Source: Circinella minor (Eukaryota > Mucoromycota > Mucoromycetes > Mucorales > Lichtheimiaceae). From it: 64,000 nucleotides of DNA. This document shows, one piece after another, positions 20,388 through 30,923 of this stretch (positions within the stretch are counted from its first letter, which is position 1; every line of letters starts with the position of its first letter). The translations under genes and the position numbers were made by a program. The stretch covers positions 124,001 to 188,000 of the forward strand of contig JAEPRB010000001.1 of NCBI GenBank assembly GCA_016758965.1. The letters run 5' to 3'. The notes under the pieces were generated by a model. That model was not told the origin of the DNA and ran no database searches. It was given only the letters and a program-made list of their open reading frames with translations.

Positions 20388-23300
20388 ATGACGTTTTTGT
20401 CACAAGTACAAGTGCGTCAACGGCGTTTTGGATGGCCTACGCGATCATCTACTAGACAAGATAGATGTGATCCACTTTATCTGGATGATAAAATATGGAA
20501 AGCCGATCATCAACATAAACAACGTTTAGCAACAAAAATTGAATCTTTTACCAAGAATGAATATACTATAGTTATATGTTTAACTCTTTGGTCACTTTAT
20601 ATTCGATTATGGAAGATATCTCAACCTGGTTCTGTTGTGTAAGAAAAAATAAGTCGCTTTCAATTGATTTTTATTTTTTGACTGTGTAAATAGATAGTAG
20701 AGCACTTACTCTACAATTCTACATGATGTACACATTTTTTCTTCAGATTTGACGAGGTACATTTTGGTGGATTTGCAAGTAAATATATTAATATGAAGTT
20801 CTTCATCGATGTTCATCCACCACTGGCCAAGATGCTTATCGCGTTAGTTGGAAGGCTTGCTGGTCTGGATGGTTCATTTGATTTTAAAGAAATTGGACTG
20901 TAAGTGTGTGTGTGTGTGTGTGTGTGTGTAAATAAACAGAAAAAGAATTGCTGTGCTTATAACTCTATATACTATAAGGGACTATATTGAAAATGGTGTT
21001 CCTTATGTTGCTATCCGTGTGTTTTGTGGTACACTGGGTGCACTTGCTGTACCGATGGCGTACTTAACAATGAAAAAAGCAGGTCACTCTACAATGTCGG
21101 GAATCGTAGTATCACTTATGCTTTGCTATGGTAATAACACCCTTGAAGTAAAATATAGTATGCATATATGTCCCCTAAACAACAGGAGATTTTTTGGACT
21201 GATACAAGTTGCATAATTTATATAAATATTAGAGAATGGTCTTATCACAAATAATCGTCTTATTCTACTCGATCCAATTTTATTATTTTTTACATCTGCA
21301 TCAACTTTATCTTGGGTTAATTTTTGCGATCAAGACAAAAGCTCAAAGTATATAGAGTTTATAATATACATATTTAGGTCCACAACGCAACAAAGCAAAT
21401 CATTAAAAACGGTTCATCTCTCTTTTTTTTATTTATTTTAATATATAGAGTATTTAATCTACAATGGTATTTTTGGCTTACAATGACAGGGCTTTGTATG
21501 GGACTCACTGCAAGCTGTAAATGGGTTGGTTTATTTACCATTGGAACTGTTGGTATACGTACTATTAAATCATTATGGAATATCTTGGGGGATACTCAAG
21601 TATCAATGGTAATTTTTTTTCAAAACAAGCATAACAAACGGTTTTAATCAAAATGTATAAGATATTGGCTGATTCTTTTTATTTTATAGTTGACATTTTC
21701 ACATCATTTCTTTGTGAGAAGTATTTGTTTAATTGTACTCCCTGTTGCTATATATATGATTATGTTTGCAATTCATTTTCGTTCGTTACCCAACACTGGT
21801 GACGGTGATACGTTTATGAGTCCTGAATTTCAACAGACTTTGACTGGATCAAATACACATATGGCTGGCACACCCATTGGTAACGATAATATTTTTACAC
21901 CTCTAATTATACAAGGTTGTAGAAAGAATGGATTAAAATCAACTAAATTGTGGGGGGGGGGGAACAATATGATATATAGATATTGCATATGGCTCTAGAG
22001 TATGGATTAGACACGAAGGAACGCGTGGTGGTTATTTACATTCACATCCACATAAATATCTCACAGGAAGTGGCCGTAAGTAGTTTAGCCTATTTTAAAA
22101 GAAGCCGACAAAAAAAAAAGAATTTTATGCTAGATTGAATGATAATGGTGATGATAACAGATGGTATAATATTATTTTATTGTTATTGTCATAATTTTTA
22201 TTAATATTACTATGTTATGATGTCAAACGGATAAACTCATCTATAGAACAACAAATTACATTATATCCACACAAGGATGATAATAATTGGTGGATAATTG
22301 AAAAGCCACGAAATTCACCACGCCGAAAACGTCCTGATAATAAGTATGGGGTTCAGTATGTTAGAAATGGTGATAGAATCCGACTTGTACATGCTTTGTC
22401 ATCACAAAGACTTCATTCCCATGATGAAAAGCCACCTCTCGCAAATGACGAATACCATAAGGAAGTGAGGTAAGACAATAATTAGCAAAAATAGAAAATA
22501 GTGACATATTTTTTTTTGAACTTTTTGATAACTAAATACTAATCCTTTGACATATCCTGCATTCTATATAACATGTGGCGATATCTACGTATTATATAGC
22601 GCATATACAGATCTAGATATTCCTAATGATCCTGATAATGATTGGATTGTAGATATTGTAGCCTATGACGGAAAAGATTTAGAGTCAAAGGATAGAATGA
22701 GAACAATTCATTCCCGTTTTCGCTTATTGCATTATCGACAACAGTGTGTATTATTTTCGCATGAGAAAACATTACCTGAAGAATGGGGCTTTGGTCAGCA
22801 AGAGGTGACATGTATGCAAGATAGTAAATTACCTAAGACAATTTGGTATATAGAAGCAAACCAACATCCTAAATGTAAGTTTTTGCTTTTATTGTTTTAC
22901 AAATATTCCTAAAACTAAAAAATGCGGGGTAAAATAAAAGAGAACAATAAGGTTTGATATTAATACAGCAATTCTTTTTTAGTTGATGAGGATGTAGAGA
23001 TGGTAAGCTACAAGCATCCCGGATTTCTCACTAAATTCATCGAACTGAATAAAGTTATGTGGCATGTGAATAAAGGCTTGACAAAGAGCCATCCGTACGA
23101 TTCCAGACCACAGGTATGTTGTAGTACAAAACATGTTGAAGTTCGTACCTGCACTATGTAACACAGACTTTTTTTGGTTTGTTGTGTATCCAGGCATGGC
23201 CGTTTCTAAGACGAGGAATAAGTTTTTGGGTTAAAGATGGAAAACATATTTATTTACTTGGTAACCCAGTAGTCTTTTGGAGTTCCACAATTGCCGTTTC

Positions 23301-24217
23301 TGTGTATCTTGCTATATCATTCGTTATTGTATTGATGAAAAAACGTGGTTACAAAAGCAAATTTCATGGTAATTATTTTATTCCAGTTATGTGAAAATAT
23401 GTTATTTGAAGAGCGCAAAAAGAAAAAAAATTCAACGGAGATCAAGGATGTGGGTGTATATGGATGTACTAATATGGTATGGTTAATAAGAAGTTGTACA
23501 TGGTAGTTTAACTTTAAATTTGCAATGATAGAAATATTTAACCTGTACAATGAATCAGCTGGTTTTTTTATAACTGGCTGGTGCGCACATTACTTTCCAT
23601 TTTATCTAATGAATCGTCAATTATTTTTGCATCACTACATGCCAGCACTTTATTACGCCGTACTTCTGTTTGGTAGCATGTTTGATCTTTCTACTTCTTG
23701 CTTGACATCTAGAAAACGGACAATTCTAGTAACCATAGCGATAGTTTGTGTTATTTATACTTATCGCAGTTTTATTCCTATTACTTACGGTGAACCGTGG
23801 TCTCAGACATCATGTGAAAATGCAAAATGGACAAACAGTTGGGATTTTAATTGTGTTCGGTAAGTGATACATCAAAAGTAATAGCTTCGAATCGACATTT
23901 TAATATTATTATGTATTGTTTTCGCGCTACTTCCCGTCCATCTTCCCGTAAACGCATATCTCAAAGTGCTTCTCATGTTGGACGGATTATAGTGTTACGT
24001 ATTACTATAAACAAAACTTATTAACTATTGCTACTATAGATTCAATAACAACTCTGAAAAAGTTTATCAAGAAAAAGCATCTGGTGCGATACGTAATTTT
24101 GGAATAGAAAAACTTTATAGTTTTGTAAAAGACTATCTTGGAATAGGAGGAAGAGCTCAACATTTACTAGAAGATTCAGTGTTTGAAGGTACTGGAGATG
24201 AAAGAGCAATGGAATAA
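20388..24217 (+). CDS. Dolichyl-phosphate-mannose:protein O-mannosyltransferase (PMT family, probably Pmt4/POMT1-like)
   Basis: Transfers mannose from dolichyl phosphate to Ser/Thr of secretory proteins in the ER. Thirteen exons (20388-20638, 20747-20899, 20979-21130, 21233-21347, 21449-21608, 21690-21879, 21980-22075, 22247-22469, 22600-22874, 22983-23113, 23194-23368, 23532-23859, 24040-24217) join without a frame break to 808 residues. The catalytic loop 1 has [13 protein letters not shown] with the essential Asp-Glu pair at residues 86-87, followed by [10 protein letters not shown] luminal MIR region runs from [11 protein letters not shown] through [13 protein letters not shown] and [10 protein letters not shown]. 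The end carries [18 protein letters not shown] and multiple membrane spans. Subfamily is a judgement from HPPLAKM and RRGISFW; PMT1 cannot be excluded. A TG repeat (20904-20929) and an eleven-G run lie in introns. Confidence 0.92.
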
Positions 24218-24928: not shown

Positions 24929-27625
24929 ATGGCAGTCGTTTCCGTATATCAAATTCTTTTAGTATTTATATTTTTACCATTTTCTCAGTCACAAGTTACA
25001 GATATCACCTCTTCTGGTATGTCACTTTTTCCTTCAGATAGAGTCACTTTCTCTCTATTATAGTATATAATAATTTTTGTTCAAGTCGAGTTATCTTAAC
25101 CTCTAAAAAAACAATTGCTCGTATATATACATAGGTGCTCAATGTGTTCCATATCCTGGCGGTGTATGTTCTGTAGGTATCACCAAATTATACATAGAAA
25201 TAAAAAAGAAAGCTCAATTATCTGGGCACCAATGAATCCCACGCTCATTACCACTCAATCGTTAATTCAGGATTACGTAGATTATAACGTGTATCTTCCG
25301 GATGGAATAACGTTTGGAGCAATTGAACAAAAATTAACCTTATTAAACAACCTAACAGATTGGTTAGGCGAAATTTACTATCCTTGCGTCGAAGCATACT
25401 ATCAATATTCTTGTTCATTTGAGTTTCCACGATGTAGTACATCTATAGTAAATAACACTGAAAGTAAATTAACATATGTATATAAGACAAACAGTTTAAA
25501 TTACTATTAATATAGATCATAATTATCAAGCAAGTATTCATTCTACCTGTTAAATTTTAGTCCCAACTGTCTTAGGAGCATGTCAATCTGCTTGTCAAAA
25601 TACTATTGATACCTGTAAAACTATATTCCGTATAACTGGGCATACAGATAATCTACCAGACTGTACTGCTAATTCACCACTTACAAATATACCAGCTCAA
25701 CCTGATAACCATTGTAATGCCGTAGCTCAAAAAAGTAAGAAGAATCATTATTTCTTTTACTTTTCTTTCTTTTTTTCTCAATACCCAATAATCTTGTTAT
25801 CGCAAAAATCGTAGATCCAGAAAAATATGCACAAGGGTTCAATATATCGGGCATTCCAGTCGGATATGTACTTTCTGAATGTACAGCACCTTTTATAAAA
25901 GATCCTCTTGCAAAAATGGGTTCTCATGATACTTTAGATCCTGTCCATTGTAAGTTTGGCTGTTGCATCCCATGTCCAGCTCAAAATTATGTAAGTTGAA
26001 ATATATTTTTTTATGTCTTTTCATCACATGAGGAAGTGAGAAAACTCCACATTATTTAAATTAATTTTACAAATCCCAATTTCTTTTTATAGTTCTTTAA
26101 GGAAGGCTATCCTGAAAAGGGTTTCCTTGCTACAGATATCATTCGAATTGTCTCTGCTGTATTGTCATTTTTTGTATTTATAAGCTACTTAGTCTTACCT
26201 GACAAGAAAAGGTGATACTGCTAGAATAATATTTGTTTTTCTTCTTCAATTAGTTATGTAGTTTCAAGAGGATGGAAAAAAGGATATATACTAATCATTA
26301 TCCCACGGCCTGTTATATTGTATATTATTTAGACATCCAACCATTATCATTTTATTTATCTCAGGATGTCTACTCGTATTTAATGCTGTTGCATTTTTCT
26401 CGATCAGTGACCCTAAGCGACTTCAATGTGCATCAGATGGAATAAGGCAAAGTACTCAAGATAATAATGTATTATGTGCGGTACAAGGTAACAAAATAAC
26501 TTTGCTATTTTTTTTTTTACTTCCATTTAGAAAACGACGTGCCTTTAGATACGTTTTATTAACACAAACAGGGGTTTGATTTATTAACAGGTGCACTCTT
26601 GCTATTCTCATCTATGGGGAGTACTATGTGGTGCACAGTGATGATTCTTAACCTTCATCTTCATACTGTGTGGAACAATAACTTTTTGATGGATAAATAT
26701 ATTATTCTCAATGTGCTCTGTTGGGGTACCGCTGGCATTATAATGGGTGTTTCTCTCGGACTTCATGCGATCAAATTCGAATTTGCCAATCTCTGTTTAC
26801 TTGAAGTAGACCTTATTATGAAGGCATTTTTCTATCCTATGGCTGCTATTGCTATGCCAGGATTTATTATTCATTTTGGAACATTTATCTATATTGGTCG
26901 CGTATGTATATAGTAGTAGTATTACTTACGTTTTGATTTTTATGACAATAACACAATGAATCTAGTACTCATTTTATCAACAAATTTTATTAGGTTGCTA
27001 TGAGATCAGGTATGGAAGCAGACATGGCACAATCTTTGTCAGCATCTGGGGGAACGGGTTCAACGAATTCTCAACAAACAAAATCACATATTCGACGACA
27101 TCGTCATGCTGTTGCAGCTGTCAAAATTCAATGGCGCCCGTTGATGTTAGCTTCACTGATGGTTATTTCAGTTGTATTTTATTGGGTAGGCTCTTTGTCA
27201 TTATTATTACGTACTATATTATGATTGCACGTGGTTATCTTTGTAAGCTATACCTTTTTTCTTGAAATCTGACTATATTATAAACTTTTATCATATATCC
27301 ATTATAGCTCTTTTATATGATTCAGATCAACAAAATGATGGGACTTAAACGTGAACCAATGGCCATGTATGATTGGATTGGATGTATGATGGATCCTGAC
27401 ACTCATCAAAATGATTGTACACATATTTTGGAAGATTATTTACCACCTTTTCCATTAATGATAACGGCCGAAGTACTTGTAAGTATTCTTGGCATTACAT
27501 TATTTTTGAATTTCGTTAAACGTTCTTTATTGCAAGAATGGAACGACTTAATTTATAATATACGCGTTAATATTGGACGCGGACGCCACGTTCAAAAAAA
27601 TGGCGACCAATTCTATGTTCTGTAA
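24929..27625 (+). CDS. Frizzled/Smoothened-like seven-transmembrane receptor with cysteine-rich domain
   Basis: Ten exons (24929-25016, 25135-25172, 25271-25463, 25561-25734, 25815-25990, 26093-26211, 26333-26487, 26591-26901, 26994-27185, 27308-27625) give 587 residues. A signal peptide (about 1-20) precedes a Frizzled-type CRD: CVPYPGGVCSDYVDYNVYLP, then YYPCVEAYYQYSC..FPRC, CQSACQNTIDTC and further Cys up to CKFGCCIPC. Seven hydrophobic spans follow from about residue 236, starting IIRIVSAVLSFFVF, with IILFISGCLLVFNA, LLFSSMGSTMWC, ILNVLCWGTAGIIMG, FYPMAAIAMPGFII, LASLMVISVVFYW and MITAEVLVSILGIT. This is class F architecture as described for fungal and amoebal Fsl proteins. A canonical KTxxxW after TM7 is absent; KRSLLQEW stands there. 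Ligand and coupling are unknown. The exon 2/3 junction (phase 0, TTCAG acceptor) was chosen because it restores CSDYVDY. Confidence 0.88.
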
Positions 27626-28852: not shown

Positions 28853-29530
28853 TTACTCTTCATCTTCTTCGTCATCACCACCACCAGCAGCAGCGGCTCT
28901 CTTTCTCTTGACACGACCAGCACGGCCACCACCATAGGGAGAGGTCAAGGCAAAGTCAATGTGCTTTTGGGAGTCCTATTGTAAATCAAATCCAAAACAG
29001 AAAGGAAAAAAGAGTCAGTAAATCATATATATATACAAAAAAAAACCAGGCACAATAATAAAAGCAGCAGAAATACATACCAAACGAACAATGAACGAGG
29101 GGACGTTCACAATTTGCTTGCCAACACGAATGTGACGTTGACGGATCAAGACACGAGCGTGATGAATGGACTTGGCCAAACCAGACTTGAAAACTTGGGT
29201 TTGCAAGCGACGTTCCAAAAAGTCTTCAATCTTCAAAGACAAAACGAAATCGAGCTTCATGCGGCTTTCGTCCAATACACCAATGCGGACCAAACGGCGA
29301 ATCAAGGCATTACCTTCAAAAAGACGACGGGGGTCCTTTTCGTCCAAAGTGAGCAATTCACGGGCAGCACGACGAATCTTGGAAAGAGTCAATCCAACAC
29401 GCCAGACTTCCTTCTTGTTCTTCAAACCGTATTCACCGACCAACTTCAATTCTTGGTCGAGACGAGCAGACTCGTAGGGACGCTTGGGGACCTTGTAGGT
29501 CTTGCTGTAGGTTCTGTATGCACCAGTCAT
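28853..29530 (-). CDS. RPS9: 40S ribosomal protein uS4 (S9e)
   Basis: Two exons, 29530-29081 and 28975-28853, give 190 residues. The protein reads through the eukaryotic uS4 landmarks: [57 protein letters not shown], the S4 RNA-binding domain around [30 protein letters not shown], and, from exon 2, [11 protein letters not shown] plus a basic then acidic tail (DDEEDEE). It sits in the small-subunit body near the mRNA entry. The start is the ATG giving [12 protein letters not shown]; the family usually starts slightly shorter (MxxRxYSKT). The exon favours C-ending codons and AAG, as expected for abundant ribosomal proteins. Confidence 0.97.
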
Positions 29531-30923
29531 GCTGTATGGACAGTAAAAAAGGAAGAAACAACAATTTGCTGCCTTTGATCGTACTTTTACACACTCGTTT
29601 CCTGTTCTCCGTCGACGAAAAAAAAAATTGTTTTATGTAATCTGATTGGATGAAAATACAAGCCTCATTTTTTCTTTTTCTTGAAGGAGAAGGAGTTGGT
29701 ATTCAACTTCAATCATGTCAAAACTTCCGTCGTCCCGCGCTAACATTCATCTGTAGGATACTATTTATCCAAACTATATGAATAAGAACGTTGTATAGCC
29801 TTTAATTTAAATTCTTCAATAATAAAGGTTATTAATATTATAGTAGATAGCATATTTTACGCTGTATGTTAAATGTGCTTAAGTGTTTCTACGATCGATT
29901 ATGCATGAATTTATCATATTTCATGTATCTTGACAAATTATAACACAAGGTTATCAGCCCACTTGACTAAGCTTCCCTAACATTCACCAAATACAACTAT
30001 GCCTACTTTATCGCTGCTATGTTAATTAATGTTGAGAGCATTGAATACTGGTTTTTCTCAAGTTATAAATTTCCTATATTTTGAAATACACGAGGTAACC
30101 ATTCGATAGGCAAGTTGAGTGGCTTAATCATATATCTGTTGCAGCCTCATAATTTGACTTAGTTGAATACTTTTCATTGTAGAGAACATCAATCAAGAGT
30201 AATTGGTGGACGTAAGCTTTGAAAACACTCAATGATTTTAAAGTTATTATAGTAACCTTAGCGACCATAGTAACCAATTTAAAGAGTAAATTGTAGTAGC
30301 CATGATTTCTAGCAACAGTTAATTTGCGTTGCCGTGGAAAATCTCTGGATTATTTCTTGAACAGAACTACCACTATCTTTTACTAGTCAATTGTTTACAT
30401 AACATACCGTTCCAAAGGGACTTTGGTATCACTATTCATCTATAGTAATACCATCCAAAACTAGAAGCCATTATAGGAATGATATAGTACAATTTAATAT
30501 TAAATAAACAATCCAAACATTCTATAACCATTATATAATGTAAAACTAAATAAATGTGTATGTATTAGATATATGAAATGTAATTTAACTTTCTACAGTA
30601 TTTTTGCACACCATAGTTGACAGATCAAGAACAATTTGAAGCATAGAAAAAAACGTGACTGTTCGTGCCTTGGCGGCTTGAACAAATTTTTCCAAGTTAT
30701 ACAGTATTTGCTCCTTCTTTCTTTTTCGAACTTAATCCGTTGACAGGTAACTTGACGCGATCAACGTGGGGAATGCAGCTACTTGTACTTTGTTGTTGTA
30801 TACTACAGGATGCATTTTTGTTTGTTCATGGGTGTAATTATATATTTATTTAAAAAATCGTTTGATTTACTCATCTAAAACTTTGTTTTTTTTTTTTTCA
30901 AAAATAAAATAAAATTTTATAGA
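29531..30923. other. Divergent intergenic region between ribosomal protein genes uS4 and eL21
   Basis: About 1.4 kb separating two divergent ribosomal-protein genes. The first 200 bp next to uS4 is GC-richer and should hold its promoter. A T-run and AT-rich tract precede the eL21 ATG directly. The remainder is AT-rich with no accepted frame, and no shared motif could be fixed by eye. Confidence 0.45.

Follow-up and report, generated by a model that had tools for sequence, protein, structure and literature searches.

Frizzled and Smoothened receptors (class F) are central to animal development, and the role of such receptors before Wnt, Hedgehog and Dishevelled is a question that might be approached through a gene at positions 24929 to 27625 (forward strand) of a 64,000-nucleotide stretch of the Circinella minor genome (contig JAEPRB010000001.1, positions 124,001 to 188,000; hereafter the window). 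Krishnan et al. (2012) reported two Frizzleds in Spizellomyces and, among fungi, none outside Chytridiomycota (PMC3251606). Liu, Salamov and Grigoriev (2025) described 187 fungal Frizzled sequences in a work on 1357 species and proposed a class 17 (XVII, Frizzled-like) of fungal G-protein-coupled receptors (GPCRs), found mostly in early-diverging fungi (PMC12842992). A fungal Frizzled is therefore less surprising than a sequence-only reading of the window had implied, given that a fungal GPCR class had already been proposed (PMC12842992). That reading had also left ligand and output open, in agreement with a 2026 review in which the entries of the fungal class for functionalised, ligand and yeast are 'No, No, No' (PMC13308352). 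The window gene belongs to class 17 and is thus of a kind already known; it is real, complete and ordinary in kind. With a probability of roughly 0.7, we consider that it encodes a class F receptor of this kind that signals through G proteins and without Dishevelled.

The class F relationship is evident from sequence comparison and from the predicted structure of an orthologue. Members of class 17 are recognised by a Frizzled or Fz Pfam match at p <1e-5 (PMC12842992, section 2.2). The window protein matched PF01534 (Frizzled) over residues 239-564 with 38.8 bits, above the cut-off of 22.3 (E 8.8e-10); of the two Pfam models that the sequence-only reading had named as a check, this one was passed outright, whereas PF01392 (Fz; residues 33-142, 26.4 bits) was significant at E 1.1e-5, at the limit of the class 17 threshold, yet under its curated cut-off of 32.1. 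A third row, Strabismus (E 0.13), was below its cut-off and was taken as chance. When the single sequence was compared with the PDB, Frizzled-3 was found at E 1.2e-8, and other Frizzleds and Smoothened (SMO) were found more weakly. A profile built from 50 aligned relatives reached Frizzled-3 at 2.4e-16 and also found SMO; the part of it covering the cysteine-rich domain (CRD) matched the CRD structures of ROR2, FZD3 and FZD10, and the Cys/Pro-rich hinge and the CRD could be aligned with FZD3 and FZD6. The fold was compared using the model of P0001, a 69% identical orthologue, and the first 33 rows obtained were all class F, the lowest of them tied with the rows that follow. The best full-length matches, with CRD and seven-transmembrane (7TM) region taken together, were Smoothened structures.

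Class 17 proteins also have seven TMHMM helices, with the N-terminus outside and the C-terminus inside (PMC12842992). The membrane part of the P0001 model consists of seven long helices, and the hydropathy of the window protein, with a hydrophobic N-terminal stretch at residues 1-24 and further hydrophobic stretches from residue 232 onward, agrees with them and with the signal peptide that had been proposed. The three CRD words quoted in the sequence-only reading were located (residues 41-49, 78-90 and 114-125), with the exon 2/3 junction falling inside the first, and all ten CRD cysteines are present (Table 1). Collectively, Pfam, the PDB sequence matches and the predicted fold bear out both class F membership and a complete CRD. 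Among the 50 aligned relatives, 26 carry CRD cysteines 1 and 5 and 20 carry neither; the remaining 4 are mixed, and three of these have a gap at cysteine 1. These two cysteines pair in animal CRDs, and their co-occurrence is as expected if they are disulphide partners. All 20 rows without them belong to the Mortierella group (P0046-P0082), a pattern that suggests the loss of one disulphide there.

We then considered two sites known from animal class F receptors, the Dishevelled-binding motif and the switch residue. The word after transmembrane helix 7 (TM7), KRSLLQEW, had been read as standing where animal Frizzleds carry KTxxxW. The location and the Trp were upheld, but K and T did not align: the aligned word is SLLQEW, so the Dishevelled-binding motif is not present in the window protein. 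In the 50 relatives the Trp is invariant (50/50), the K site holds Lys in none (0/50) and Ser or Ala in 43, and the T site holds Thr in 2, by which an equivalence of the tail word with KTxxxW is ruled out.

The second position is 7.55, whose Trp forms a molecular switch with R/K6.32 and is described, in a paper on animal receptors, as common to every class F member (PMC6368630). Published residues for W7.55 are W547 in FZD7 (PMC11358414), W535 in SMO and W493 in FZD6 (PMC6368630), and W494 and W520 (PMC7442489). In the structural alignments of the P0001 model, the end residues corresponded as follows: 567 to FZD7 563 (9epo), 569 to SMO 553 (4n4w), 570 to FZD4 513 (8wm9), 567 to FZD5 536 (6ww2) and 552 to FZD6 494 (8jh7). 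Presuming no gap between these ends and TM7, each of the five offsets places model residue 551, which is Asn550 of the window protein, on the published W7.55; all five receptors are in agreement, with the FZD6 alignment ending just one residue from 7.55. The exceptions were 5v57, which ends far into the tail and gives another offset, 8qw4, shifted by one residue from the other FZD3 rows, and 7zi0, which carries chimera numbering. The switch Trp is thus replaced by Asn in the window protein and was found in 0/50 aligned relatives, which have Val (21), Ile (17), Met (5), Thr (3), Asn (2) or Leu (2). With sequence anchors, position 7.55 could be scored in 120 of 135 proteins (the window protein and the 134 fetched ones), and not one had Trp there; the spacing was the usual one in 107 of these, and the remaining 13 may be misplaced. 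In the available sections of the class 17 literature (PMC12842992, PMC3251606, PMC13308352), the loss of W7.55, the loss of KT and a conserved C-terminus go unmentioned, and among the matches listed in the open-access literature no title or abstract opening concerned W7.55 or the C-terminus of fungal Frizzleds.

The basic stretch before TM6 was found as described, at residues 451-466 (IRRHRHAVAAVKIQWR). It ends in an Arg that is invariant in the relatives (50/50; Arg466, 27135-27137), and from the sequence pattern this residue is a candidate for 6.32; phmmer alignments to PDB chains end before TM6/TM7 and did not reach it. Two observations weigh against the expectation, set out below, that a family without this Trp favours G proteins. 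Phe is invariant at 7.56, and Trp occurs at 7.51, one helical turn from 7.55, in 21/50 relatives, the window protein not being among them; either residue may serve as a stand-in for W7.55. The missing W7.55 limits the fold assignment less than it does the claim that the protein functions as animal Frizzleds do.

Considering these features, we propose that the receptor would lie in the plasma membrane with its CRD outside, and that the CRD would bind a lipid or lipid-bearing ligand, by analogy with Frizzled and Smoothened CRDs. Binding would move TM6, and one or more heterotrimeric G proteins would be activated by the receptor; Dishevelled would not be used, with both the KT of KTxxxW and Trp7.55 absent. 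The 6.32-7.55 contact has been reported to limit the opening of TM6 and has been linked with a preference for Dishevelled rather than G proteins; a changed 6.32 impaired Dishevelled recruitment and raised G-protein recruitment or signalling (PMC11358414, PMC7442489). With neither Trp7.55 nor KT, the family would therefore be expected to favour G proteins. Candidate transducers form a large set: G-alpha matches over cut-off lie on 12 contigs of the same genome, and twelve G-alpha genes are reported for Mucor circinelloides (PMC6936849). Searches of the same genome for the wnt, DIX and Hedgehog families gave no matches; the same method missed PF01534 itself (a known false negative) and no control genome gave a wnt or DIX match, so absence is not claimed.

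We consider it unlikely that the protein, as a class F receptor, acts independently of G proteins, by way, for example, of a DEP- or PDZ-domain partner or by Smoothened-like sensing of membrane lipid. The last residue of the tail is hydrophobic, as in class II PDZ ligands, and the same genome holds nine DEP matches, five of them over cut-off, and two PDZ matches. Animal Frizzleds, in addition, prefer Dishevelled over G proteins (PMC11358414). Against this, the KTxxxW motif and W7.55 are missing, no link between the DEP matches and the receptor was observed, and the PDZ matches are few.

It is still more improbable that the membrane region is a class B or cAMP-receptor (class E) 7TM which gained a Frizzled CRD by fusion. 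At E 1e-3, the 50 relatives matched Fz in 46 cases, 7tm_2 in 21, Frizzled (PF01534) in only 11 and Dicty_CAR in 10, a distribution that would fit such an origin. The window protein itself, however, matches PF01534 over cut-off across the membrane region, with 7tm_2 and Dicty_CAR unlisted (weak matches above about 0.1 being mostly filtered). The family profile that finds FZD3 and SMO reaches a class B adhesion receptor at just 0.4, class F structures occupy all leading places of the structural comparison, and the hinge and CRD align together with FZD3 and FZD6. A fusion is therefore disfavoured by Pfam, family profile and structure alike, and we retain the class F receptor as the preferred reading.

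The start and stop proposed from sequence were exact, and a single unbroken frame of 587 residues runs over ten predicted exons from the ATG at 24929 to the TAA at 27625, with nine introns, all GT-AG and of 80-122 bases (Table 1). The first search returned 108 related proteins; by alignment coverage, 69 have CRD and 7TM in a single predicted protein, 17 have the 7TM with less than 30% of the CRD (P0002, P0004 and P0023 included) and 22 lie between. One relative, 69% identical, matches over the full length of the query (100%), and the genome has another Frizzled-type gene (contig C140:83013-85327, minus strand, locus L028), which reads as ten matching exon pieces in the same order. A misjoined or decayed gene, either a pseudogene or two genes of which one holds the CRD and the other the 7TM, has next to no chance of being correct: it could draw on the 17 CRD-poor relatives and on the CRD-lacking annotated Circinella umbellata orthologue (389 residues), but it is opposed by ten exons free of stops and frame breaks and by the relatives, including P0011, P0012, P0039 and P0092 (563-574 residues), whose contigs of just 1.8-2.6 kb would fit spliced transcripts. 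The C. umbellata protein, P0002, is the closest by identity (95% over 66% of the query) and is probably a truncated gene prediction, because in the window the CRD exons adjoin the 7TM exons.

Table 1. Exons and motifs of the receptor gene, in window coordinates
Feature	Position	Strand	Content	Basis
Exon 1	24929..25016	+	Start codon; hydrophobic leader that is probably a signal peptide (residues ~1-22, 24929-24994)	Open frame, GT donor, hydropathy
Exon 2	25135..25172	+	CRD start; Cys33, Cys41	AG/GT borders, frame, Cys list
Exon 3	25271..25463	+	CRD; Cys81, Cys90, Cys97	Frame and borders, Cys list
Exon 4	25561..25734	+	CRD; Cys114, Cys118, Cys125, Cys141, Cys158	Frame and borders, Cys list
Exon 5	25815..25990	+	Cysteine-rich hinge; Cys187, 210, 214, 215, 218	Frame and borders, Cys list
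Exon 6	26093..26211	+	TM1	Frame and borders; helix 229-257 in the model of orthologue P0001
Exon 7	26333..26487	+	TM2, beginning of TM3	Frame and borders; P0001 model
Exon 8	26591..26901	+	TM3, TM4, TM5	Frame and borders; P0001 model
Exon 9	26994..27185	+	Third intracellular loop, basic stretch (27090-27137), candidate Arg6.32, first half of TM6	Frame and borders
Exon 10	27308..27625	+	Rest of TM6, TM7, helix 8, C-terminal tail, stop codon	Frame and borders
Asn550, site 7.55 of class F (a Trp in the animal receptors)	27509..27511	+		Structural offsets of P0001 model vs SMO, FZD4, FZD5, FZD6, FZD7, with published residue numbers
KRSLLQEW	27518..27541	+	Site of animal KTxxxW motif; only Trp560 aligns	
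GDQFYVL, C-terminus	27602..27622	+	Member of the family-wide QF[FYIL]x[LI] end	

The organisms named in the first search were Mucorales, Mortierella relatives, Umbelopsis, Jimgerdemannia and Glomeromycotina. Rhizopus delemar RA 99-880, which we take to be the R. oryzae of the 2012 survey under a synonym, contributed P0087 (RO3G_08284) at E 2.3e-105. In that survey, R. oryzae is given as without Frizzleds (PMC3251606). A tree was built from 51 rows (the window protein, its paralogue on C140 and 49 fetched proteins, all fungal or unnamed), in which 32 of 48 inner branches were well supported and the chytrid and blastoclad branches were long and unreliable. The paralogue, 38-63% identical to the window protein in matched stretches, was sister to C. 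umbellata P0023, and the window protein to P0002. Each of the two copies also groups with copies from Zychaea, Fennellomyces, Phascolomyces and Dichotomocladium; the duplication is therefore older than the genus. Glomeromycotina, Mortierella relatives and Umbelopsis formed supported groups, so that the tree, with a family spread over Mucoromycota and groups following taxa, agrees with vertical descent. Horizontal transfer from animals was not supported, all organism-named rows of the first search being fungal ('lgn' rows are unnamed). Searches for animal and amoebal sequences, made with an alignment and with a chytrid protein as queries, brought back fungal or unnamed proteins only.

The C-terminus is the second family-wide feature. 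QF[FYIL]x[LI] stands at the very end of 49/50 aligned relatives and 111/134 fetched proteins; of the 23 without it many are short or cut, P0074 and P0100 end in EFFVI, and it is missing in all four chytrid/blastoclad proteins (P0125, P0127, P0133 and P0134). The paralogue on C140 ends in GDQFFAL. The tail is similar to a class II PDZ ligand or to an export signal, and it likely serves sorting or scaffold contact.

The genomic surroundings were surveyed by scanning ten reading frames, and none of these neighbours suggests a pathway link. Directly upstream lie exons of a protein O-mannosyltransferase (22532-23860, forward strand; MIR, PMT_4TMC), and downstream a ribosomal S4/S9 gene (28853-29632, reverse strand), whose frame at 28853-28978 reads like the C-terminal end of such a protein. 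Farther off in the window are a trehalase, an NAD-glutamate dehydrogenase and an SPX protein. No tRNA and no Rfam family at gathering score were found in the 64-kb window.

Taken together, a conserved C-terminus and the loss of both W7.55 and KT, each shared across the family, could make pre-animal class F function testable. With a complete CRD but neither the switch residue nor the Dishevelled motif, the fungal members form a natural comparison, one that could reveal whether coupling to G proteins came first and which ligand a CRD binds without Wnt; relatives occur in moulds open to culture and manipulation. Tentatively, and at somewhat less than even odds, Mucoromycota Frizzleds may run without the Arg6.32-Trp7.55 latch and the Dishevelled dock, in an ancestral G-protein-only mode that preceded the addition of Dishevelled by animals, with QFFxL/I as a Mucoromycota-specific signal. 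Their 7.55 residues are aliphatic or polar, at the same position as oncogenic SMO W535L; mutation of W535 gives the oncogenic SMOM2 (PMC6368630).

Set beside known systems, the window protein shows no difference in kind from fungal class 17, with which it shares the Frizzled/Fz Pfam match and seven helices. With animal Frizzleds (FZD1-10) it shares the ten-cysteine CRD, the Cys/Pro-rich hinge, the 7TM fold and the KTxxxW Trp at helix 8, but they have the KT of KTxxxW and W7.55, both of which it lacks; in a published table (PMC2959043), Wnt and Dishevelled each have a minus under 'Eukaryote'. Amoebal Fsl receptors, likened here by published description, are likewise non-animal class F, and KTxxxW occurs in D. 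discoideum only in FslJ and FslK (PMC10445921); they differ in that many dictyostelid members have no recognisable CRD. Smoothened provided the best full-length structural matches to the P0001 model, a rank that may be explained by the CRD-bearing full-length structures in the lists being mostly SMO. It differs from the window protein in its Trp at W535 (7.55), and the full-length alignments, with a root-mean-square deviation of ~12-14 A, place the CRD differently relative to the 7TM region.
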